Source: Runella sp. SP2
Lineage (GTDB): Bacteria > Bacteroidota > Bacteroidia > Cytophagales > Spirosomataceae
Assembly: GCF_003711225.1 (NCBI RefSeq)
Contig: NZ_CP031030.1
Location: 5,456,001-5,520,000 of the forward strand
Direction of reading: 5' to 3'
Length of the DNA: 64,000 nt
Shown: positions 9,435 to 21,840 of the stretch, one piece after another
Position numbering within the stretch: position 1 is the stretch's first letter
Layout of the letters: each line of letters opens with the position of its first letter
Notes under the pieces: model-generated
Seen by the model: the letters and a program-made list of their open reading frames with translations, nothing else
What the model was told of the DNA's origin: nothing
The model's database searches: none
Translations under genes and position numbers: made by a program

Positions 9435-10430
9435 TTAGTATTTCAAACACCTTGTCTTTCTTCTGGCAGCGCTGCTTTTGCCTCTAAACCTAAAAAGGGC
9501 ATCAAATCCATACCAAATAGCTAGTTCAAAAGCGCCAGTATCCGTACCAAGGGAAGAAATACTAACATCATAACTGGCCTGAAAAAGGATATTATCTCTG
9601 GCCCATCCCATGGTTCCGACCAAGGCATCTCTGCGTTTAGGGCCAGTCAAAAGACCTCTGTACCATACACCTACCAAAAGCGGAGAAAAGATAAGGTTTG
9701 TGCCTACGTCTAGCTGCTGATTCATCCCCTGACGACGCCATTGTAGTGCCACACTCAGTGCGCTTTCTCGGTCCAAATCTCGCCCATATCCATTTCCAAA
9801 CACTTGAATTTGGAGGGGAAATTGGGCACCTAGCTGAACACCCCAGCGTTCGCGTAACCAATCATTGTTTCGAAACCCCATATTGTGATAAGATACACCC
9901 GTCCAAAAAAAAGGCTCATAATCGCTCTGTGGGTCATAATCAAAACGAAGCCCACTTGAAAAAGCCAAGCGGTTATTGGTTAAACCATCTTGCGCTAGTG
10001 GATCATTAGTACCCAGATAATTGGATACAAACATAAGGTTATCACCACTCCATCGATCAGAGACCCACGCCGCTTGAAGCCCTGGTGTAAGCCTTAACTG
10101 CTGTTTAGCATCTAAATAAAACAACCGCGACACTTGGCCTGCCAAATGTGTACTGTTGAGAATACTTCCCCTACGATCATACATCGCCTGTACTCCCAAA
10201 CCTACTTGTGCATCTTCTGCGTAGGTATCAAAAGAAAAGGCAGCAGTCTGAAACGCAGTACCAATCGAAGGCCATTGGTTACGATAATTCGCAATCAAAC
10301 GAGGAGTGCCTGCATCACCTGCCAATGCTGGATTTTGATACAAAGGATTGGTGTAAAATTGGGAAAATTGAGGCGCTTGCGCACTTACATTAATCACAAT
10401 ACTCCAAAAGATAAAGGATAAATAGCGCAT
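9435..10430 (-). CDS. PorP/SprF-family T9SS-associated membrane protein
   Basis: The 331-residue protein has a signal peptide (cleavage near VSAQ-APQ) and the PorP/SprF start QFSQFYTNPLYQNPALAG, then repeated amphipathic strands ending in aromatic residues, consistent with an outer-membrane beta barrel. Family members pair with type B T9SS cargo and help hold it at the cell surface. The preceding gene in transcription order encodes such a cargo, 25 bases upstream, so the two are very likely an operon and a functional pair. Confidence 0.9.
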   Translation of the reverse strand: MRYLSFIFWSIVINVSAQAPQFSQFYTNPLYQNPALAGDAGTPRLIANYRNQWPSIGTAFQTAAFSFDTYAEDAQVGLGVQAMYDRRGSILNSTHLAGQVSRLFYLDAKQQLRLTPGLQAAWVSDRWSGDNLMFVSNYLGTNDPLAQDGLTNNRLAFSSGLRFDYDPQSDYEPFFWTGVSYHNMGFRNNDWLRERWGVQLGAQFPLQIQVFGNGYGRDLDRESALSVALQWRRQGMNQQLDVGTNLIFSPLLVGVWYRGLLTGPKRRDALVGTMGWARDNILFQASYDVSISSLGTDTGAFELAIWYGFDALFRFRGKSSAARRKTRCLKY

Positions 10431-10455: not shown

Positions 10456-13400
10456 TCATCGCATCAAGTAAAAATTACCTCGAAGCCGTTCTCGTTTACG
10501 AGTTTCAATATACATTACCTCACTTTCTAAAACATACATGTCTGCTGGCATGGCCCGACCATTAAAAGTACCATCCCAAGATTCTGCCTCATTTTGGCTA
10601 CCTGCTGGTATATTTTTTACTTCAAAAACTACCTCTCCCCATCTATCTCGAATACGAAGCCAGATGATTTCCTTAATACCGTTTCCGAATAGGGTAAATC
10701 GGTCACCGATACCGTCGTTGTTCGGGGTAAATGCTTGGGGAATCACCACTGAGCAGCTATCTGTTTGAAAAGCCGACACCCGAAAAGTAGAATCTTTACA
10801 AACCCCACGGTTACTAACTACCAACTTAACATCGTATTGACCTTTAGGAAACGGAAGGATTGGGTTGGGCGCATCGGATGTACGTCCATCGCTGAAATAC
10901 CACTTAAAAGTATCTGCATTTTGAGAACGATTGATGAATCTTACTGGGCCAGGTGAACAAAGCAGAGAATCACCCTCTATCGAAAAGTCAGCAACAGTGC
11001 GAGCTAGTATAGGTACTGTCTTACGGATTGGTACCCCTTTGCACGCAGTACTACCCCGATACACCGTCAATGTGGCCGAAATAGAATTGGCAGTAGTGGT
11101 ATAGGTGTGTAAAGGCGAGTAAGTAACCGAGTCGAGGGGAGAACCATCTCCAAAATCCCAAATAACACCTAAGCGGGGATCGGATAAATTGACAAATTGA
11201 ACTGGCTGCCCTTGACAGGCCATCGGAGATTCAAGGCGAAAATCACCTTTAGGTAGGCTATCTACCTTCACAATTTTAGAGGTAGAATCAAACCCGCAAG
11301 CGGTGTAAGCAATCAGTGTAATTCGATAATCACGATTTGGTTGGGAAAAAGCATGGGTAGCATTGGGGCGTGTGTCTATCTTTCCATCTCCAAATTTCCA
11401 AACCCAGCGTTCGGGCTTGGGGACAGTGGCATCTTTCACTTGAATTGGTTCGCCTGGGCATACGATTGATTTTGACAATTCAAAAAGTGGCCTAACTACA
11501 TTTGGGTGAACCCGAATATCTACCGTGGCACTGTCTTGTCCGCAATCACTGGTGACTGCTAATTTCACACGATAAGTACGGGAGCTATCCCGTGCCGAAA
11601 ACCAATGTTTCAAGGTATCTGCCCCTGAAGTGCGCATACTACCATCTCCAAAACTCCAACGTGTCAAAGGTTTATTGTGCCCAGTAGAACGATTAGAGAA
11701 AGTAATCAGTGCAGGCGTACAGCGAACCGTCGTAGAGTCCACTCCTATTTCTGCTTTTGCCCGTGGACGAACAGTGACAGATTTACTAGCTCGTTGTTCT
11801 CCGCAAGCATTTTTTACCGACAAAGTGACGGTAAAATCTTTGGCCACCCGTTCAATATTTTCGTATTGCTTAGCAGGCGGTGTAAACCCTGTATGTTGTG
11901 TTCCATCCCCTAAAGTCCATGTGTAGTCGGAGGTACTATTGGGCGTACCTGTCGGTGTAAAGTTCACCGTCAATGGTGCACAACCTTGTGTTTGGCTGAG
12001 ACTAAAATCGACATTCGCAGGGGGTGCTAAAATGAGCACTTCTCGCGTCGTGGTATCAGCACATCCTCCCGCTCCTGCAATGAGCGTTATTCGATTGGTT
12101 CCGGCAGCTAGCGAAAGACTAGGGGTAGCACCATTGGCTACTTGATTGTTGTTGACCAACCACGTATAAGTTGACGCACCCGTCGAATTGTTCGTAGGGC
12201 GAAGCGCACTACCCGTACATCCATTCGCTATCGCAAAATCAGCTTTAGGACGACCAATAGAAATAACGGCATCATCTGTACTTCGACACCCACTGGGGCT
12301 GCTCACCTCGTACGTAAGCCTAATCTGATTATTAGGAACCGCACTAATTATTAATGTATCTCCTCTCAGGCAATTGGAACATCCTGTCCAACGTCCTCCC
12401 GAAGGAGTAGCTTGTAGTTTAAGCAGCGAAGCTCCTTGACAAATCGTCAAATCTCTGGCATCAGGCTGTATGCCTTCAACAACGACTGTCACACTATCTT
12501 TGGAAGAACAACTCCCACTTCCTACTACATAACGAATCAGATGTCGTCCTAACGTTTTTGGGTTAAAAACACGATTTGTTCCCTGAGATTCAATCAAGGC
12601 TGAGCCTGACCACGTACCACCCAAAGACGACGCACGTAGTGAAAGGCTTGCTGTACCTAAGCATAAGGTCGTATCTCTTACTGGAGTCGTAATCTTTACT
12701 TGACTAGCTGCCGATACCAAAAAAGTATCACGGTCGGTAATTACTCCGCCACAAGGGTTCGGAATGGTTGCTTCGACAATATAAGGAGCTGTTTGAAAAG
12801 TAAGTTCTTCTCCAACAGCAGGATCAAACGCTCGACCATTTAAGGTGTAAGAGACACCCGTTTGTGAGGCAAATCGGTAACGAAAAGGTGCTTGACAAAC
12901 ATCTGCTTGGCGCGGCAGGTTGAGTGTGGGTTTGTCAATGACAGTATGAGGGCAAGGATTAGGCTTCGAGCGTCCACAATCATTTTCGGCAACCAATGTA
13001 ACGGTATATATTCCTGCTTTCGAGAATTGAATGACAGGTTTGGGCGAAGAGGCATTAGTTCCGTTAATAAAACGATAATCACTTGGGCTAACCGTCCATT
13101 GATAGCGAGTGGCATCAATCGAAAGTGTCGCATCCAACGTAAGCGTACCTCCATTTGATAAACAAATCACCGTATCACCATTGACCAATGAGAAGCCGCT
13201 CGTTAGTACATATTTAGCTTCTGGCAGTTTTTTGAGTTTGACATCCACTTCGGCTGTACTCACCCCACAGTTTTGTGAAGTAGCGGTAAGTTTGGCTTTG
13301 TATGTTTTCGTAGGGTCACTGTAGTTGATAGAAGGTGAAGAGCCAGTACTGGTTTGGCCATTTCCAAAATCCCACAAAAAACTTACATCTGAGGAAGTCG

Positions 13401-13866
13401 GGCAAGAATTATTTGAAAAACGCACAGGCGAACCCTCACAAGCCGCCCCAACGGCAGGATTAGCGACAGGTTTCTTGTTAAAAGTAACCCTAAAGCCTTT
13501 GTTATCGTTTAAACACGTAGCACTCCCTACATCAATATCAAAACGAACTAAGCCCGCACTACAATTTTTGACAAAATTTTTCAAGTCATAAATATGCTTG
13601 ATTGTCACCTCACTATTGAGTGTTACATTTTCACTTTTACCATCACCCCATTCCACTTCATATACCTTACTAGAACAAGGGCCTGGTTTAAGCTTGACAC
13701 AAAGCTCATACAGGGAGTCAGTCGGTGAAATACACACCACTCCTGAGCTAGTAGCGTCGCAAGTGGTGATGTCAACCCGCTCTTGGGCATAGAGATTACC
13801 GCCCAATACCGACAAAATAACCGTGAAAAAATAGAGGATTTTCTTGAGCGTCGAGTGAGTTAACAT
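10456..13866 (-). CDS. PKD-repeat surface protein with T9SS type B (gliding-associated) C-terminal domain
   Basis: The 1136-residue secreted protein has a signal peptide (KKILYFFTVILSVLGGNLYAQ), then a chain of Ig-like and PKD domains marked by repeated FGDG or WGDG turns (VEWGDGKSE, LWDFGNGQTS, WTLGDGTQH, RWSFGDGSM, VWKFGDGKI, IWDFGDGSP). The C-terminal about 95 residues start VVIPQAFTPNNDGIGDRF and contain WDGTFNGRAMPADMYV, the hallmark of the type B sorting domain exported by T9SS. Such proteins act as adhesins or matrix components. The next gene downstream is its PorP/SprF partner. Many Cys residues suggest disulfides. The ligand is unknown. Confidence 0.9.
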   Translation of the reverse strand: MLTHSTLKKILYFFTVILSVLGGNLYAQERVDITTCDATSSGVVCISPTDSLYELCVKLKPGPCSSKVYEVEWGDGKSENVTLNSEVTIKHIYDLKNFVKNCSAGLVRFDIDVGSATCLNDNKGFRVTFNKKPVANPAVGAACEGSPVRFSNNSCPTSSDVSFLWDFGNGQTSTGSSPSINYSDPTKTYKAKLTATSQNCGVSTAEVDVKLKKLPEAKYVLTSGFSLVNGDTVICLSNGGTLTLDATLSIDATRYQWTVSPSDYRFINGTNASSPKPVIQFSKAGIYTVTLVAENDCGRSKPNPCPHTVIDKPTLNLPRQADVCQAPFRYRFASQTGVSYTLNGRAFDPAVGEELTFQTAPYIVEATIPNPCGGVITDRDTFLVSAASQVKITTPVRDTTLCLGTASLSLRASSLGGTWSGSALIESQGTNRVFNPKTLGRHLIRYVVGSGSCSSKDSVTVVVEGIQPDARDLTICQGASLLKLQATPSGGRWTGCSNCLRGDTLIISAVPNNQIRLTYEVSSPSGCRSTDDAVISIGRPKADFAIANGCTGSALRPTNNSTGASTYTWLVNNNQVANGATPSLSLAAGTNRITLIAGAGGCADTTTREVLILAPPANVDFSLSQTQGCAPLTVNFTPTGTPNSTSDYTWTLGDGTQHTGFTPPAKQYENIERVAKDFTVTLSVKNACGEQRASKSVTVRPRAKAEIGVDSTTVRCTPALITFSNRSTGHNKPLTRWSFGDGSMRTSGADTLKHWFSARDSSRTYRVKLAVTSDCGQDSATVDIRVHPNVVRPLFELSKSIVCPGEPIQVKDATVPKPERWVWKFGDGKIDTRPNATHAFSQPNRDYRITLIAYTACGFDSTSKIVKVDSLPKGDFRLESPMACQGQPVQFVNLSDPRLGVIWDFGDGSPLDSVTYSPLHTYTTTANSISATLTVYRGSTACKGVPIRKTVPILARTVADFSIEGDSLLCSPGPVRFINRSQNADTFKWYFSDGRTSDAPNPILPFPKGQYDVKLVVSNRGVCKDSTFRVSAFQTDSCSVVIPQAFTPNNDGIGDRFTLFGNGIKEIIWLRIRDRWGEVVFEVKNIPAGSQNEAESWDGTFNGRAMPADMYVLESEVMYIETRKRERLRGNFYLMR

Positions 13867-13942: not shown

Positions 13943-14311
13943 TTATGCCTTATGTCGTAAGCGGTGGTTCATCTCTGTAAACTCTTTTATACGTCGATTG
14001 GCTATTGTAAGTACTTGACCGTTTGTAAGTACCAAGGTATTTTTCAAAGGTGAATCAACCCAATGGCTAATAAAAGAGTGGTTGACAAGATGAGATCGGT
14101 GAATACGCACAAAAGAGGAAGGAAGAAGCCGCTCAAAAGCACCTAACGTTTTGGCCATCAGTACTTGGCGGCCATCGGTTAAATACACACGTGTGTAATT
14201 CCGCTCTGATTGGAACCTCACTATTTGCATCAACGAGACTGCTTCTTTGCGATCACCTATCCTCAAAAAAATTGGCGGGCACAACGACGGAAGTGACTGT
14301 GGAGTATTCAT
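13943..14311 (-). CDS. LytTR DNA-binding domain protein
   Basis: The 122-residue protein is almost wholly a LytTR domain: VSLMQIVRFQSERNYTRVYLTDGRQVL, then SFVRIHRSHLVNHSFI and the C-terminal ANRRIKEF segment, typical of LytTR regulators. It lacks a receiver domain, so it is a stand-alone regulator of the kind common in Bacteroidota. It lies between the M48 gene and the type B cargo gene on the same strand, with gaps of 76-106 bases, and could control either. Targets cannot be read from the sequence. Confidence 0.85.
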   Translation of the reverse strand: MNTPQSLPSLCPPIFLRIGDRKEAVSLMQIVRFQSERNYTRVYLTDGRQVLMAKTLGAFERLLPSSFVRIHRSHLVNHSFISHWVDSPLKNTLVLTNGQVLTIANRRIKEFTEMNHRLRHKA

Positions 14312-15889: not shown

Positions 15890-16528
15890 TTAGGGCAATA
15901 GTACTTTAGGATTGGTACGGCAACTGTCCACTAGCAGTTGTTTGGTGGTGAATAAACCAATGGCATATTGCTGGGACATCGCCTCATATTCTAGCTGGAT
16001 TTTGGTTAAAAGGCTATCTTGGGTAGGTTTATCTCTGGTGTATAACTTCAACGTATCCTCACAAAAAATATACGCCAATTGTGCTTTTTGCTGAGGCGCT
16101 TCCCACCATTGTACGGGCAACTCACCGATTGGTAGCCCTTCTGCGTACCCCAATCCTCTCGACGGTGTTTGTTGAGCTGCATACACCTCCATTTGTTGGT
16201 TACGAATAAACACAAAACTAGCACTTGAGGATTGATGACGCCAAACACTCACCCCAACAATCAATAACAGTATAAACGACGCCGCAAAAGCAGTATAATA
16301 TGGATACTGCTGAAAATAAGCTACAATTTGCTGAGGATAAGTTTTAGGAGCGCTAGGCATCGAAAATTGATTCGCAGCATCATAAAACGCCTCGTCTTGA
16401 GCTATTTTAGTTTGCAGAGACAAAAATTCATCCCAACGAAGTTCGTCAAAAAATGAGGAGTCGTTTTGTAGCAATTCTAAGTATTTTTCATATATTGGGA
16501 CGTTTTCAACCACTAACCGCTTACACAA
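15890..16528 (-). CDS. Single-pass membrane protein of unknown function
   Basis: The product is about 212 residues: a charged N-terminal part (about 1-65, KYLELLQNDSSFFDELRWDEF), one membrane helix (about 74-92, YTAFAASFILLLIVGVSVW) and a C-terminal part of 120 residues outside the cytoplasm. The layout recalls anti-sigma or signalling partners but no zinc or other motif is present. There is no ATG before residue 57; the best start is the TTG at 16528, with a GTG at 16513 as alternative. It abuts the divergent lipoprotein gene, whose ATG begins at 16529. It lies 11 bases upstream of the M48 gene. I do not recognise a family. Confidence 0.6.
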   Translation of the reverse strand: MCKRLVVENVPIYEKYLELLQNDSSFFDELRWDEFLSLQTKIAQDEAFYDAANQFSMPSAPKTYPQQIVAYFQQYPYYTAFAASFILLLIVGVSVWRHQSSSASFVFIRNQQMEVYAAQQTPSRGLGYAEGLPIGELPVQWWEAPQQKAQLAYIFCEDTLKLYTRDKPTQDSLLTKIQLEYEAMSQQYAIGLFTTKQLLVDSCRTNPKVLLP

Positions 16529-16687
16529 ATGAAAAGCCTCATGCGTATTTTGTCGTTTGTAGCCGTTGTTGCTTTTATGTCAGCTTGTACGGAAAATGAT
16601 GTCAAACCTGTAAAAAGTACGCCGTCGTATGCGGAGGATACGCCTCCAAAGCCACCTCCATGTTCTGGTGGAGGTACTTGCGACTAG
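16529..16687 (+). CDS. 52-residue putative lipoprotein
   Basis: The reading frame encodes a basic start (KSLMRILSF), a hydrophobic core (VAVVAFMSA) and a lipobox Cys at residue 20 (FMSAC), followed by about 32 residues rich in Pro, Gly and Cys ending CSGGGTCD. This is the layout of a small lipoprotein. It is too short for ordinary gene finders and is the only plus-strand gene among minus-strand neighbours. A second ATG at 16541 is an alternative start. A large hairpin at 16714-16755 could terminate it. Confidence 0.6.
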   Translation: MKSLMRILSFVAVVAFMSACTENDVKPVKSTPSYAEDTPPKPPPCSGGGTCD

Positions 16688-16713
16688 CACCATTTAGTTG
16701 TTGACTTTACCTT

Positions 16714-16755
16714 GTATGGGGGTTATCGTTTCTTAAGAAACGGTGGCTCCCATAC
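16714..16755. terminator. Extended hairpin spanning the stop codon of the CHAT gene
   Basis: The stem GTATGGG/CCCATAC encloses a symmetrical internal loop and then CGTTTC-TTAA-GAAACG, a perfect 16-base palindrome. The CHAT gene stop lies inside it. On the plus strand it is followed by TCCTTTTCTGGTTTTT, so it may terminate the small lipoprotein transcript; on the minus strand no T run follows. Convergent use is likely. Confidence 0.5.
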
Positions 16756-19563
16756 TCCTTTTCTGGTTTTTCCTTTCCACAACAACGCTGCTGCTAGAAC
16801 GAAACCAAAGACGGCTATTCCCACTTTCCAAGAAATCCCCCCAAAAAACTGTTCAGCATAGACAGCCTCTCGGTTTCCTAAAACAATATAATTTGCCCAA
16901 TAATAAGGATGGCGGTACTTCTTATGTTCTCTAGAAGAAAGTATGTCAAGCTTTGCCTTTTGAAGTGCTTCGTCGATAGCATATCCCTTGGATAGATAAT
17001 GATGGAGTCGAATTGATAAAAAAGACACGGCATCATTGTTGGCTTCCCAAGTCGTGGTCACTACTGCTTGAGCACCTGCATAGGCAAATGCCCTTGCTAA
17101 TGACAAGATACCTTCACTCCGTAGCATCGTTCCTCTATTGGCTTCGCAAGTACCTAAAACTACCAACGATGTATTTTGTAACGGTAAGTGGCAAATGTCA
17201 TCAAAATACAGGTGACTATCGTGATCGGGATATAGTTGTATGTAAGAGTTAAAAAAATCTGCCGAATCTATGAAAGTATGGGCAGCGATATGGATTATTT
17301 TTTTGTTTAAATCTGCCTTTAATAGACGGGTTTTTGTTGCTTTTGTAGTTAAAATCTTTTCACCATCTATCTTCTCTACTTCTTCTGTGCTTGAGATTGG
17401 CAGCCATTTTTTTGCCAACAATTTTTCGTCTAAAAAAGGAGCAATAACTAATGCCGACTGGGTAGTTCCTTTTGGCGCATCTAACAGCGGCTTAGAGCGC
17501 TCTTGATACACACGACTGGGATGTTGCCAATACCACTGTGCCGAATAAGCATAAGAAATCGAATACTTTGACAACAAATAATCGTACTGTTTTTGCCCTG
17601 TTTCCAAAATCTCAAAAGGTAAAAATTGGAAACGAGGATCACGGTTAATAACCAAGATTTTTTTGTTAAGTACTACTTTTTTTATCGGTTCTATAAACTG
17701 TTGGTAACAATAAATAGCCGATGCAGAGCCATAGTAACGCCCCAATCCAGGGTTGTTCACTATTTGCTCTTGTAAATTCCTTAGACAAACCTCTAATTGT
17801 GGAGCAATGGGTTGACACAATACATCGGCTTTATCATGGGTAACAACAAAAGTATAAAGACAGTCATTTTGCCAAATATAGGATACATAAGCTGTTTCAT
17901 TGTCTAATTGTTGCTGTAGCGATGACAAAGAAAAAGCAAGTTGTTGATAAATACTTTGGTAATAACTTGGGTATTTTTTAAAAAGTTGTTGTTTAAAACG
18001 GTGCCACCGAATTTGAAGATTAATATAGGCATCCATATCAACCGATTGTTTTCCCCTAAAACTCATCAATTGACGCTCAATTCTACTTTCTTCGTCTAAA
18101 ATATGAGGCGGTAATGTATGTCTTTTTAATGTATTAACCTTAACTGTTTCTTTGAGGTGGCTAGACTGAAAAGCTTCAATCCACCGAAACAACCGATGAA
18201 TACCAAATAACGATGGATAGTTCTTGCAAGCTTCAACCCCCATTTTGATGGCTTCTGGATAAACAGAAAAGTTTTGCTCCGCCAATAAAAGCCTCACTTG
18301 TTTATCGTCAATTGTTTTACCAACCAAGGCATGTACTTTTATGGCAACCTCAAACGCATCAATCGCTTTTTTTAAATCAACTGCTTTATTGCTTTTTTTA
18401 AAATTGTTGTAACATAAAAAAGAAATGAGATTTACCGACTCAACCGCTAATTTAGGATTTTTAATATCGAAAGGAGACAGCGTATTAGTGACCTTTTTTA
18501 GTACGACCATCTGTCGTACTGATTCAAGGTATTTTAATGCCAGTATATCTTTCCCTTTTTGAATTAAAATTCGGGCTTTCAGCAAATACACATGCGCTAA
18601 ATTATCCCGTTTTGAAAGAAGATTTTTTTCGTAAACTTCGATGGATTTATCTATATTTTTCTCTGCTTCTTCGTACCTTTTTTCCTCAAAATGGCACGCT
18701 CCCATAAACCAATATTGCTTAAACAAAATAGTAAAATAGGTACTAGAGCTTTGAGGTGAAAGATGGGCTAGTAATACAATGGTTTTTTTACATGTAGTCA
18801 AGGACTGAGCGAAATCTTTCTCCTTATAAAAAGTCCAAGCAAGTCCAGATAAGTAAGCTGCTTTGTCTATATCTTGTTTCAGATGTAGGCGCAAGGATTC
18901 TCGACGATACAGAAGCGCCTTGGAATGCTCCTCCATCAAATCGAAACATTCGGCTATACTACTACTAATAGTAGGAATATTATCTTTCAAATTATACGTA
19001 ATAGACAACGTACGTGCTTTTTGAAAGTAATTCATGCTTTGTTGATAATCCTGAAAAGTTAGGAGCATTCGTCCCAAATTGATGTAATGATACACCACAT
19101 ACGTCGGTAAACGGGTTTCAACAGAGGGGTTTTGTTCAAGTGTTTGGTCAGCTCGTTGAAAATAAAAATAAGAAGAATCGGTATTTGACCGTGATTGGTA
19201 GATTGCTCCTAGGAAAGAATAAAGTTTGAAATGCGTCGTATCTGGTAGGGTAGCTAACTCAAGGAGATGCGCTATGCCTTTATGGCCAAAATGCGCTGCT
19301 TCCTGCAACCTCCCTTGGCCATAGTACAAACTACAAATATTCATACAAAAATACCCCGAACGATTGGGGTCTGCTCGGCTTACCTGCTGATATGCTTTCT
19401 GATAAAAAAAAATAGCTAACTGGGTACTGTCTTGGCGGGAAAAATATTCTGCTTTGTATTGGTACTGCTGCCAAAGTTTTTTTTGCGCTTGTTGCCCCAT
19501 CCCCAAAAAAGGAATAACAGCCGAACTAAGCCACCATACCAAAACCTTTCGATTGAACTTCAT
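16723..19563 (-). CDS. TPR-CHAT protease-like protein, secreted and C-terminally membrane-anchored
   Basis: The 946-residue protein has an N-terminal signal peptide (KVLVWWLSSAVIPFLGMGQ). TPR-like helices run from about 30 to 450 (for example YFCMNICSLYYGQGRLQEAAH, CHFEEKRYEEAEKNIDKSI). A helical linker follows, then a CHAT domain (about 560-900). The caspase-like pair is visible: His762 in IIHIAAHTF and Cys806 in VVLGTCEAN, with the usual SLARAFAYAGAQAVVTTTWE after it. A C-terminal membrane helix (about 913-930) ends in a basic tail, so the CHAT domain should lie in the periplasm. CHAT proteins are cysteine peptidases often activated through TPR partners. It overlaps the upstream matrixin-like gene by 4 bases, so the two are translationally linked. 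Substrate unknown. Confidence 0.88.
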   Translation of the reverse strand: MKFNRKVLVWWLSSAVIPFLGMGQQAQKKLWQQYQYKAEYFSRQDSTQLAIFFYQKAYQQVSRADPNRSGYFCMNICSLYYGQGRLQEAAHFGHKGIAHLLELATLPDTTHFKLYSFLGAIYQSRSNTDSSYFYFQRADQTLEQNPSVETRLPTYVVYHYINLGRMLLTFQDYQQSMNYFQKARTLSITYNLKDNIPTISSSIAECFDLMEEHSKALLYRRESLRLHLKQDIDKAAYLSGLAWTFYKEKDFAQSLTTCKKTIVLLAHLSPQSSSTYFTILFKQYWFMGACHFEEKRYEEAEKNIDKSIEVYEKNLLSKRDNLAHVYLLKARILIQKGKDILALKYLESVRQMVVLKKVTNTLSPFDIKNPKLAVESVNLISFLCYNNFKKSNKAVDLKKAIDAFEVAIKVHALVGKTIDDKQVRLLLAEQNFSVYPEAIKMGVEACKNYPSLFGIHRLFRWIEAFQSSHLKETVKVNTLKRHTLPPHILDEESRIERQLMSFRGKQSVDMDAYINLQIRWHRFKQQLFKKYPSYYQSIYQQLAFSLSSLQQQLDNETAYVSYIWQNDCLYTFVVTHDKADVLCQPIAPQLEVCLRNLQEQIVNNPGLGRYYGSASAIYCYQQFIEPIKKVVLNKKILVINRDPRFQFLPFEILETGQKQYDYLLSKYSISYAYSAQWYWQHPSRVYQERSKPLLDAPKGTTQSALVIAPFLDEKLLAKKWLPISSTEEVEKIDGEKILTTKATKTRLLKADLNKKIIHIAAHTFIDSADFFNSYIQLYPDHDSHLYFDDICHLPLQNTSLVVLGTCEANRGTMLRSEGILSLARAFAYAGAQAVVTTTWEANNDAVSFLSIRLHHYLSKGYAIDEALQKAKLDILSSREHKKYRHPYYWANYIVLGNREAVYAEQFFGGISWKVGIAVFGFVLAAALLWKGKTRKGVWEPPFLKKR

Positions 19564-20549
19564 TTGTATTTCACTTGAACCTGATAAGCTCCTCCTAAAT
19601 TATCCGATATGTTATTGTCGTTGATGTTAAATGTCAACTCAAGGTACTGATTCATACCTTCTGTTTCGATTTCACATTGGTTGCCACAAAAGCTCCAAGT
19701 TTTATCGTTATTCAGTCGATACATAAGCGCTCCGTGGTTCATTCCTAAAACAATATTATACTGATCAATAGGAAAATTAAACAACCCTCTGTCCAAGCCA
19801 ATAGGGGTGCTCACTCCCAACCAAAACCCAACGACGATACTACCAGATGCTTTCACACTGAGGATACTTTTTGGCGAGGTAAGTATAATTTTTTGAGTTA
19901 TTTCACGATTAACCTGAAAGTTGAGCGGCAAAAAACTATACGCCAAATCGCGGCAAGCTTGGGGATATAATTGATTCACTAATAAAGAATCTTGCGTGGA
20001 AAGTTTGGGCGCTTGTTTTCTAAAGACAGGATTCATCATCGAACCTACTTCAGACGAAGTGTTCAGCCCTAGAAAAACACCTATTTGGTGCGTAAGGACC
20101 CTTGAAAGTGATTCTTTATCCCAAGGGTAGGACTCATCTAGCAAAATGACATTGGTGGCATTCTCACGTCTTGAAGCAGAAAGTGTATTGGCCTCCCCTC
20201 TCACTAAGCCAACTGGCATTTGTAGCGTAGTACTACCCATGGAAGATTTTGGAACAAATCGAATAGCTATTTCAACGCCAGGGGCTTGATAGCGCACAAA
20301 TTGTAAATTGGGATTGGCTTTTCGCCACACATCAAATGCCTGCTGAATCGCTTCCTGCTGCGTGTTGTCGTCTAACCGATTGTAGGTATTTTCAGTCGAA
20401 TATCTAAAAAGACAGGTAGTTTGTAGCTTACTTGGTGTAGCAACATGCTGAGAAGTAATGTAGTAAAAGGGAGCACTCTCAGGTGGCGCCATCACACAAC
20501 CTCCCATTTGGGCCACCACCAATAAAATAAGTACGAGACGTTTGCCCAT
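19560..20549 (-). CDS. Lipoprotein with degenerate matrixin-like (M10) domain
   Basis: With the ATG at 20549 the protein has a lipoprotein signal (GKRLVLILLVVAQMGGC, lipid Cys at residue 18); an in-frame ATG at 20588 would add 13 residues that spoil it. Residues about 45-200 follow the matrixin plan: VWRKANPNLQFVR, EIAIRFVP, NVILLDESYPWD, then the helix of the zinc site and a Met-turn (GSMMNP). The zinc motif HExxHxxGxxH is altered to HQIGVFLGLNT: Glu to Gln and the second and third His to Val and Thr, so catalysis is very unlikely. The C-terminal 120 residues look like a beta-sandwich. It is the first gene of a pair with the TPR-CHAT gene (4-base overlap) and may be its sensor or partner (inference). 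Confidence 0.72.
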   Translation of the reverse strand: MGKRLVLILLVVAQMGGCVMAPPESAPFYYITSQHVATPSKLQTTCLFRYSTENTYNRLDDNTQQEAIQQAFDVWRKANPNLQFVRYQAPGVEIAIRFVPKSSMGSTTLQMPVGLVRGEANTLSASRRENATNVILLDESYPWDKESLSRVLTHQIGVFLGLNTSSEVGSMMNPVFRKQAPKLSTQDSLLVNQLYPQACRDLAYSFLPLNFQVNREITQKIILTSPKSILSVKASGSIVVGFWLGVSTPIGLDRGLFNFPIDQYNIVLGMNHGALMYRLNNDKTWSFCGNQCEIETEGMNQYLELTFNINDNNISDNLGGAYQVQVKYK

Positions 20550-20728: not shown

Positions 20729-21154
20729 CTACTGATTTCCGTACTTCACGGCAGTTCCTGCCATGACAAAACCTTGGTAATCTTTTCCTGTGTAATATTG
20801 GTATTTGACGTTTACAATGGCGTGAGCGCCCATGCTTGTCGCTTGAATGATTAATTGATCAAGCAAAGCCTTTTTTTGCTCTTCGTCGTTGCCCCGGTAC
20901 AGCATTCGTCCGCCTTTGGTTTGCTGGTTGCTCAACGGCACTTCCTTTTCTACTTTCACGGGGCCAATGGGTGTGTAAACCCGCGTTGTAGGCTGATTTT
21001 CGTAAAATACATCAATCGGATACGTTGCATCCGCCAGTTTGATAGGAATTCCCAAACCTCCGTCGGGGGTTGTTACAGGTCGCGCACACGAAAATATACC
21101 CAGCACAATGACTACCAAATAAGTAAATGGAAAAAGTTGTCGAAGAAATCTCAT
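20729..21154 (-). CDS. Lipoprotein with YbjQ-like domain
   Basis: The 141-residue protein has a lipoprotein signal ending GIFSC (Cys23). Its last 50 residues (LLDQLIIQATSMGAHAIVNVKYQYY, then FVMAGTAVKY) follow the YbjQ/DUF74 pattern, in which an alanine-rich helix leads to GAxAI(V)xVKY and ends in AxGTAV. The function of that fold is not established. It overlaps the stop of the decarboxylase-like gene by 4 bases, so the two are co-transcribed. Bases about 21055-21075 contain a short GC palindrome (TTPDGGLG in protein) that resembles the repeat arms near the efflux operon. Confidence 0.6.
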   Translation of the reverse strand: MRFLRQLFPFTYLVVIVLGIFSCARPVTTPDGGLGIPIKLADATYPIDVFYENQPTTRVYTPIGPVKVEKEVPLSNQQTKGGRMLYRGNDEEQKKALLDQLIIQATSMGAHAIVNVKYQYYTGKDYQGFVMAGTAVKYGNQ

Positions 21155-21840
21155 GGTTCAATTTTTCTAAAGTTTGCAACAGGAAACGTCATTGTAAAGT
21201 TTTTCACGACCAACACTCCCCACGGTTTGAAAGGAGCAATGTTAGGAAACATGTCGGCATTTATCTTGATGTCGGTCAGTTTTCCAAAATAAGCCTTTCC
21301 TTTCGCGCTGGGCTGCGTCACGACCCACTCGTCGCGAAGTTGCTGCGTAATACGCAAAGGCAAAAAGGCCGTTGTTAAAGGAAACGAAAAACTCCCTCGG
21401 CGTATTGTCGCTTCAAAGAAGGGGATATTTTCCCGTTTTGCCACCAACTTGTCGGTACGTTCGTCAAGGGCTTGAAAGTCAAAATCACACAATTCTTTGG
21501 GAATCCCCCAATTTTCGATGCCGTTCCAGACACTATTTGCGTCAGAAACGTAAATTTTTGAAATCGAAAACGTGTTTTTTTCCAGCATGTCAAATACCCC
21601 TGGAATAAAGAGCAATTCGCGGTACGGGCCAACGGGTGTGGTATGGTAATCGACTAACATCATACTTGCTAGTAAACCTTTGTAGTTATCTCTTTGATAA
21701 TCAAACAAAAAACACTTTTCTCTAACAAATTTTTTGGGCAAGCGGTACAGGAAAATATAGCCATTTCCAGTCAACGACCACGGGGCAGTAGCTATTAGAG
21801 AAGGCGGCGGTAAGTGTTCGGTAGAAAGCATCTTTTTCAA
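21151..21840 (-). CDS. Acetoacetate decarboxylase-like protein
   Basis: The 229-residue product follows the ADC-like fold: an N-terminal strand pair (PWSLTGNGYIFLYRLPKKFV), a core with VDYHTTPVGPYRELLFIPG, the loop GIENWGIPKELCDFDF where true acetoacetate decarboxylases place the Schiff-base lysine, and a beta-rich end. Many bacterial homologues are of unknown substrate, so decarboxylase activity is not assured. It is the first gene of a two-gene unit with the YbjQ-like lipoprotein. Confidence 0.75.
   Translation of the reverse strand: MKKMLSTEHLPPPSLIATAPWSLTGNGYIFLYRLPKKFVREKCFLFDYQRDNYKGLLASMMLVDYHTTPVGPYRELLFIPGVFDMLEKNTFSISKIYVSDANSVWNGIENWGIPKELCDFDFQALDERTDKLVAKRENIPFFEATIRRGSFSFPLTTAFLPLRITQQLRDEWVVTQPSAKGKAYFGKLTDIKINADMFPNIAPFKPWGVLVVKNFTMTFPVANFRKIEP

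Follow-up and report, generated by a model that had tools for sequence, protein, structure and literature searches.

Sequence comparison marks a TPR-CHAT and pseudo-matrixin locus of Runella as the probable product of a deletion in a proposed envelope-signalling locus of eight genes

Introduction

What does a secreted TPR-CHAT protein do in the bacterial envelope beside a matrixin-like lipoprotein that has lost its zinc site? The question is raised by a locus of Runella sp. SP2 that lies in the window, as we call the whole 64-kb stretch analysed here (G000:C1:5456001-5520000 of a 7.6-Mb genome). A sequence-only reading had presented the locus as an envelope cluster with Craspase-like logic, made up of the lipoprotein, the TPR-CHAT protein, a single-pass membrane protein, an M48 protease with a barrel-like end, a LytTR regulator and a 52-residue lipoprotein. 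All of these genes were found at the places it gave, and both the envelope cluster and the Craspase-like logic find support; what that reading missed are two sigma/anti-sigma pairs that are central to the ancestral locus. Alignment to relatives, which are cited by locus number (L), identifies, within the window, a deletion derivative of its family's eight-gene locus, in which the CHAT protein may act on transmembrane (TM) anti-sigma factors.

Results

Sixteen loci with a long match to the matrixin-like protein were compared (L034-L047, L049 and the window locus, L054). The set leaves out L048, a half gene at a contig end in the genome that also holds L045, the short form L050, and matches to single domains. 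Ten of the 16 share one gene order: matrixin followed by TPR-CHAT, a small lipoprotein, and then an extracytoplasmic function (ECF) sigma factor, anti-sigma 1, a sigma-like gene and anti-sigma 2. Two of these ten are flawed, as the matrixin gene of L045 is cut by a contig end and the sigma-like gene of L044 is split. An M48 gene is present in 11 of the 16 loci, all arrangements counted; the stretches of L034, L038 and L039 end after the second anti-sigma gene and before any M48 position, and no M48 gene was found in L042 or L047/L068. A TPR-CHAT gene lies within the compared stretch of 14 loci, the window included, and the two genes thus occur together more often than by chance. In 12 of these 14, genes for the ECF sigma and anti-sigma 1 are present as well.

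On gene content, the intact eight-gene envelope-signalling locus of Spirosoma, Fibrisoma and Runella joins two modules; one species that carries it intact is Spirosoma spitsbergense (L065). Module A comprises a predicted periplasmic, anchored TPR-CHAT protein, the small lipoprotein, the ECF sigma and a TM anti-sigma-like protein (anti-sigma 1). Module B comprises the zinc-dead matrixin lipoprotein, the sigma-like protein, a second TM anti-sigma-like protein and the M48 protease. The modules also occur apart. Module B has no CHAT gene in the stretch in L043, L046, L051-L053, L058 and L059; its sigma-like gene was recognised by profile in L051-L053 and L058 and by TIGR02937, under the cut-off, in L043 and L046, and was detected by neither in L059. 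The association of matrixin-like and TPR-CHAT genes seen in the window is real, and it unites two separable modules, each of which is also found alone.

These neighbourhoods bear on the proposal that the window represents the functional form, in which pseudo-matrixin and CHAT would make up a self-contained protease pair of the envelope, supplemented by M48 and independent of sigma factors. The overlap of the two genes by 4 bases agrees with such a pair, as do their joint presence in 14 of the 16 loci and the full-length frames that the matrixin, CHAT, lipoprotein and M48 genes have kept after the deletion. The ECF sigma and anti-sigma 1 in 12 of the 14 loci do not, nor do the matrixin-like genes that stand beside anti-sigma-like and M48 genes in the CHAT-less loci named above, nor the truncated anti-sigma-like gene of the window itself. 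We consider this explanation improbable.

The deletion emerges from alignment with the closest relative, L045 (the same stretch as L066), from a metagenome-assembled genome of the same genus, Runella (G111). In the window, the region upstream of the small lipoprotein aligns with L045 to ~16494 and continues directly in the second anti-sigma gene from about codon 26. In L045/L066 these two junction points stand ~2.7 kb apart, and the sequence between them is absent from the window. With it have gone the sigma gene, the sigma-like gene, anti-sigma 1, the first ~25 codons of anti-sigma 2 and all sequence more than ~35 bases upstream of the small lipoprotein. The window protein that had been described as a single-pass membrane protein does have a single TM helix; by this alignment, it is what remains of the truncated second anti-sigma-like protein (AS2).

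The lost genes were not found elsewhere in the genome. One search for orthologues gave 26% identity at best and two further searches, made without a positive control, gave none; a translocation of the sigma genes within the genome was set aside on these searches. The nearest match to Sigma70_r2 (PF04542), a family with 48 matches in the 7.6 Mb, lies ~180 kb from the locus, and an ECF sigma is absent from the locus itself. The genome keeps another module A (L055), in which a second TPR-CHAT gene is accompanied by sigma and anti-sigma-like genes. The deletion is known from one assembly of one genome of the species, which leaves room for an assembly error in a strain that carries the full locus; we regard this as very improbable, given that the assembly has 4 contigs and 99.98% completeness and that the junction is located inside a 7.4-Mb contig.

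A decaying remnant without function is a more serious alternative, which we nevertheless hold to be rather unlikely. It would account for the absence of the sigma genes, of the lipoprotein upstream region and of the AS2 N-terminus, and a related locus, L044/L069 of Spirosoma telluris, has its sigma-like gene split into two open reading frames (ORFs; L044:2061-3205), possibly a second sign of decay. It is opposed by the intact frames of the CHAT, matrixin, lipoprotein and M48 genes and by the conservation of catalytic residues and of the lipoprotein tail.

The TPR-CHAT protein consists of a signal peptide, a TPR superhelix, a CHAT domain at residues 620-897 and a C-terminal TM helix with a positive tail. 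The match to PF12770 scores 131.6 bits against a cut-off of 24. His762 and Cys806, which had been noted as an intact pair, are invariant across 11 aligned sequences, the window included, and none of 15 aligned CHATs lacks the pair, 14 of them being encoded at the loci compared here and one in the other module of this genome; it is likewise retained in 62/62 other CHATs of the family and in 44/44 from the phylum (106/106). Such conservation suggests a strong constraint on CHAT to stay catalytic. The C-terminal hydrophobic segment is clear in 50 of 65 CHATs, and 48 of these 50 carry more positive charge in the tail than in the preceding flank.

By CHAT sequence profile, the nearest solved relatives are DdvA (8rot; E 2e-9) and then TPR-CHAT/Csx29 chains (E 1.6e-4 to 2.9e-4). 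For this kinship the profile is stronger evidence than superposition of the model; Csx29 and DdvA were not among 50 VIA rows for the CHAT model, nearly all of which were TPR/helical-repeat chains, a result that excludes nothing. PADLOC was also consulted about membership in a defence system, which was rejected: no model matched the CHAT or the matrixin-like protein at E 0.01, and a weak capP match to the M48 protein (E 2e-4) was the only hit. Separately, two or three TPR-CHAT genes per 15-20-kb stretch were seen in L131, L137, L149, L182, L185 and L188.

The linkage of CHAT to sigma factors extends through the family. An ECF-like sigma ORF is located at most 3 kb from 56 of 62 newly sampled and 5 of 7 earlier TPR-CHATs (61/69); among 20 control regions taken from these genomes (297 kb), 3 contain one (Fisher p 5e-10, comparing 56/62 with 3/20). 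These counts use a sigma profile that was trained iteratively on the loci and then applied to them, and the control regions, scored with the same profile, were placed at fixed offsets from CHAT genes rather than at random. The CHAT count leaves out the 28 lowest-scoring rows, one of which, L056, has no CHAT ORF of more than 500 aa; the region L073 held a CHAT fragment only. In an independent check with Pfam, 38 of 59 neighbour sigmas matched PF04542. Sixty sigma genes lie no more than 4 kb from a CHAT gene, and in 55 of these cases the gene that follows is on the same strand; it typically encodes ~240 aa, with a TM helix in 42 under a strict rule. The link is looser outside the family, where a sigma gene lies within 3 kb of 1 of 3 CHATs from the same order and 11 of 18 from the rest of the class.

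The L045 sigma matches PF04542 (E 2.6e-8) and, above the cut-off, TIGR02937, and a profile of eight such sigmas aligns with the solved structure of SigW along positions 29-191 of 193 (E 1e-10). The sigma-like protein of ~390 aa reaches E 3.7e-10 with TIGR02937, although its 39.7 bits fall under the cut-off of 42.9. Anti-sigma 1 of L045 has a weak NCBIfam anti-sigma match (E 1e-5, under the cut-off). In 43 of 50 anti-sigma-like proteins, a TM helix is clear near residue 80, and its N-terminal flank is the more positive one in 43/43, which corresponds to an N-in orientation. The charge bias of the CHAT and anti-sigma TM helices suggests that CHAT and the C-terminal part of the anti-sigma-like protein both face the periplasm and that the presumed sigma-binding N-terminus of the latter is inside. 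The only Pfam match of the window AS2, Alphavirus E2 (E 0.026), was judged to be chance.

Upstream of seven sigma genes (L034, L035, L037, L038, L040, L045 and L047), inspection by eye revealed an A/T-rich tract followed by TGTTAC and, 17-18 bases further on, CATAAA (three regions), TATAAA (one region) or a sequence close to these. This site is likely the promoter of the sigma genes, and it is gone from the window with the deletion. A promoter common to matrixin and sigma genes was considered and rejected, as the same spacing was not seen by eye in ten matrixin upstream regions; that of L036 contains TGTTAC with a longer spacer.

The promoter evidence touches on a rival in which CHAT is the output of the circuit. 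Here, the ECF sigma would induce TPR-CHAT, pseudo-matrixin and M48, and CHAT would attack envelope or foreign proteins in a damage response, in killing or in defence. Genes that neighbour ECF sigmas are often members of their regulons, as is generally known, and the sigma genes share a promoter-like site; in Myxococcus, moreover, DdvS controls an antiphage island, according to the part of the source available (PMC12288465). The absence of that site at matching spacing before the matrixin genes argues the other way, as do the title of the nearest solved relative, DdvA, as an anti-sigma, and the lack of a PADLOC match for CHAT and matrixin. We judge this rival unlikely.

The pseudo-matrixin begins with a signal peptide and a lipobox-like Cys18, which are followed by a matrixin fold at residues ~28-200 and a C-terminal domain at ~200-329. 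Its AlphaFold2 (AF2) model has a mean predicted local distance difference test score (pLDDT) of 77.8 and superposes on karilysin 4r3v with Z 17.8 and a root-mean-square deviation of 2.7 over 159 residues (VIA), a matrixin fold. The zinc motif is replaced by HQIGVFLGLNTS, in which the first His is kept and the catalytic Glu and the second and third ligands are lost. The description of the window protein as zinc-dead applies equally to the relatives compared: HExxHxxGxx[HD] is found in 0 of the 24 sequences that cover the site, the window included, and the catalytic Glu and second His are missing in each. Of the zinc ligands, the first His remains in three sequences (the window, L048 and L059), and L052 and L053 have an Asp at the third place. 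Loss of the motif in 24/24 sequences indicates that the loss is old and shared and is no damage of this genome. The matrixin-like protein presumably works as a binding protein.

A profile of the C-terminal domain returned no PDB matches, and no Pfam family matched more than one of 11 members. A resemblance of this domain to a lectin-like sandwich is conjectural: neither profile comparison supports it, and the VIA rows covered residues 29-199 only. A match of the matrixin-like protein to DUF4880 (E 0.057) was judged to be chance. Two proteins of ~430-450 aa encoded on a second, 93-kb contig (G000:C2, ~11488-13147) share only the C-terminal domain with the pseudo-matrixin, and this domain is therefore mobile. 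Matches to the matrixin protein, some to one domain only, occur in 28 of 200 genomes of the window's family; a scan with one peptide pattern named Spirosoma, Fibrisoma and Runella as bearers. For the order, 194 sampled genomes were searched, with at most 11 candidates scored in each, and full-length matches were confined to the family.

The small lipoprotein was confirmed on the opposite strand. No other protein of the locus is as well conserved relative to the Runella metagenome-assembled genome: its identity is 80% over 51 aa, and the values are 61% over 159 aa for matrixin, 57% for CHAT, 50% for M48 and 44% for anti-sigma 2. The mature tail ends in ...AEDTPPKPPPCSGGGTCD, a D-Q-P-P-K-type tail. 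The lipoprotein is present in 13 of the 16 loci, in up to five tandem copies (L034). In 11 of the 13 it runs antiparallel to CHAT, and where a sigma gene is present (12 loci) the two are divergent in every case. The search pattern for it included the PPK/TPPTLP tail. Short lipoproteins with PPK or PPT tails were also found at CHAT loci beyond the matrixin set (L131, L138 and L142); the tail pattern gave 4 matches in 60 CHAT regions, of which L078 was judged to be chance, 0 in 20 control regions and 0 in 40 phylum regions.

The M48 assignment holds, with a PF01435 score of 20.8 bits against a cut-off of 20.3 and HELGH at residue 131; all 13 homologues checked, the window protein among them, retain HExxH. 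The barrel-like end ascribed to this protein amounts to a match to OMP_b-brl_2 below threshold (E 0.038). In relatives, the M48 gene adjoins AS2. The LytTR gene is present as read, and its proposed place in the cluster was rejected. No similar protein was found in the compared L045 stretch or in L062-L069, and a weak likeness (20% over 74 aa) adjoins L049 only. Coordinates of all features are given in Table 1.

Table 1. Features of the locus in the window, with positions counted from the first base of the window.
Feature	Position	Strand	Evidence
Pseudo-matrixin lipoprotein, 329 aa	19560..20549	(-)	PF00413, E 1e-15
TPR-CHAT protein, 946 aa	16723..19563	(-)	PF12770, E 5e-38
ATGA, 4-base overlap of matrixin stop and CHAT start	19560..19563	(-)	sequence
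Small lipoprotein, 52 aa	16529..16687	(+)	sequence; similar short lipoproteins in relatives
Deletion junction	16490..16500	no strand	alignments to both sides in L045/L066
Truncated second anti-sigma-like single-TM protein (AS2), TTG start	15890..16528	(-)	44% identity to L045:3666-4334
Secreted M48-type metallopeptidase, HELGH, 486 aa	14418..15878	(-)	PF01435
Stand-alone LytTR DNA-binding protein	13943..14311	(-)	PF04397, E 1.4e-15

Two neighbouring regions of the window were also inspected. Upstream of the matrixin gene (20729-21840), the frame of a YbjQ-like lipoprotein shares the bases ATGA (21151-21154) with that of an acetoacetate-decarboxylase-like protein, which scores under its Pfam cut-off. 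On the other side, 10456-13866 and 9435-10430 comprise a PKD-repeat protein with a CHU_C type IX secretion signal and its neighbour, which we take to resemble a member of the PorP/SprF family.

Discussion

We consider it probable, on balance, that in the intact locus a periplasmic CHAT acts on TM anti-sigma factors, as a split variant of the DdvA/Craspase idea that is decayed or rewired in the window. In this model, the CHAT protease would be controlled by the TPR superhelix and the two lipoproteins and would cut or otherwise inactivate the periplasmic part of the TM anti-sigma factor. The ECF sigma thereby freed would turn on the locus and an envelope response that includes M48. We infer the inactivation step from the nearest relatives, DdvA and Csx29, from the predicted topology and from the cleavage of Csx30. 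Because both sigma genes and the first anti-sigma are absent from the window, the circuit would be unable to run in cis there; CHAT, pseudo-matrixin and M48, all of them intact, may be recent leftovers or may have been redirected to another target.

Several observations weigh against this model. CHAT could be the target of the sigma factor instead of its trigger. In many cases the CHAT gene and the sigma pair run towards each other and are therefore not co-transcribed. Outside the window's class, in the rest of the phylum, a sigma gene lies within 3 kb of only 7 of 23 sampled CHATs, the 40 phylum regions having been picked by hand, and a matrixin-CHAT pair is present in L041, where neither ECF sigma nor lipoprotein was detected. 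The name anti-sigma is applied on the grounds of position, topology and profile matches below cut-off; three of four other proteins at the anti-sigma position match NCBIfam 'antisigma' under the cut-off and one does not match, and no NCBIfam family matched the window AS2. A cruder hydropathy rule detected the N-terminal signal-like segment in just 37 of 63 family CHATs, with start codons assigned mechanically, and the C-terminal segment in 43 of 63. Finally, the CHAT-domain part of the AF2 model is of low confidence (many residues with pLDDT <60), and Foldseek placed DdvA at rank 1-2 but with a TM-score of only 0.17-0.18.

The proposed step would be comparable to DegS/RseA-like site-1 cleavage, carried out by a caspase-like enzyme. 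DegS is a serine protease with a PDZ domain, whereas the enzyme here would be the caspase-like CHAT, for which cleavage of the anti-sigma is predicted. The protease, TM anti-sigma and ECF sigma of DegS-RseA-RseP follow the same logic, as set out in the available part of PMC10028731.

Craspase of type III-E CRISPR systems likewise combines a TPR-CHAT protease, an ECF sigma and its inhibitor; according to the same portion of that source, Csx29 cuts Csx30, the inhibitor of CASP-sigma (PMC10028731). Craspase is activated by RNA and works with Cas7-11, whereas the CHAT described here has a signal peptide and a C-terminal TM helix, is predicted to be periplasmic and has TM anti-sigma-like partners. 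No Cas model matched the eight proteins in the PADLOC scan, and no search aimed at cas7-11 was made.

DdvA-DdvS of Myxococcus xanthus (8ROT/8RW5) is a second case of a TPR-CHAT-related protein tied to an ECF sigma, and the His and Cys are also present in DdvA in the alignment with the CHAT profile. By record titles, DdvA unites a TM anti-sigma and a CHAT domain-containing protein in one chain, whereas here they are encoded by separate genes. The window CHAT was tested for the one-chain arrangement and does not have it: the protein contains a signal-like segment and TPRs, its only other TM helix is C-terminal, and the anti-sigma-like genes of relatives are separate. Beyond DdvA, the locus here adds the pseudo-matrixin, the small lipoprotein, the second pair and M48. 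As reported in the accessible portion of PMC4374960, DdvS is active once DdvA has been inactivated, by a signal that is unknown.

Two further precedents place CHAT or caspase genes near ECF sigmas. ECF54 sigma factors have a conserved context of CHAT, subtilase and carboxypeptidase genes, according to the part of PMC8999054 at hand; unlike in ECF54, most sigmas here are followed by a TM anti-sigma-like gene. Caspase/EACC2 (TRADD-N) neighbourhoods bring caspase-domain genes together with an ECF sigma gene and the gene of a TPR protein, with EACC2 and caspase domains and variable C-terminal domains, and the available part of the paper does not describe a secreted TPR-CHAT with TM anti-sigmas (PMC8195603). 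Karilysin and other matrixins (M10) resemble the pseudo-matrixin in fold and differ from it in their catalytic Glu and second zinc His.

The claim that no described system has this layout thus requires qualification. As far as the available parts of the sources cited above go, CHAT beside ECF sigmas (ECF54) and caspase/EACC2-ECF sigma neighbourhoods were already known, and the principle was known from Craspase and DdvA. What appears to be new is the split, predicted periplasmic form, the strong linkage in this family and the union with the pseudo-matrixin/M48 sigma module. We recognised no paper that describes a Bacteroidota TPR-CHAT/ECF/anti-sigma module in the literature searched; the ECF reclassification paper (10.1093/nar/gkaa1229) may list one.

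A wider scheme can be offered tentatively. In this group of bacteria, secreted TPR-CHAT proteins might be caspase-like, signal-gated site-1 proteases of TM anti-sigma factors. The Spirosoma/Runella version would be wired to a second sigma pair, with the pseudo-matrixin and the short DQPPK-tailed lipoprotein as sensor and substrate/ligand, and this envelope module would be widespread, with Craspase (Csx29-Csx30-CASP-sigma) as an offshoot recruited to CRISPR and DdvA as a fused one.

What is known of TPR-CHAT proteins comes mainly from Craspase, in which a caspase-like enzyme cuts the inhibitor of a sigma factor. If the same is true of secreted TPR-CHATs across the inner membrane, they would constitute a large non-CRISPR family of caspase-like gene switches and would provide a common background for Craspase and DdvA. 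To this family, the window would add a natural deletion that parted the protease from its sigma factors.

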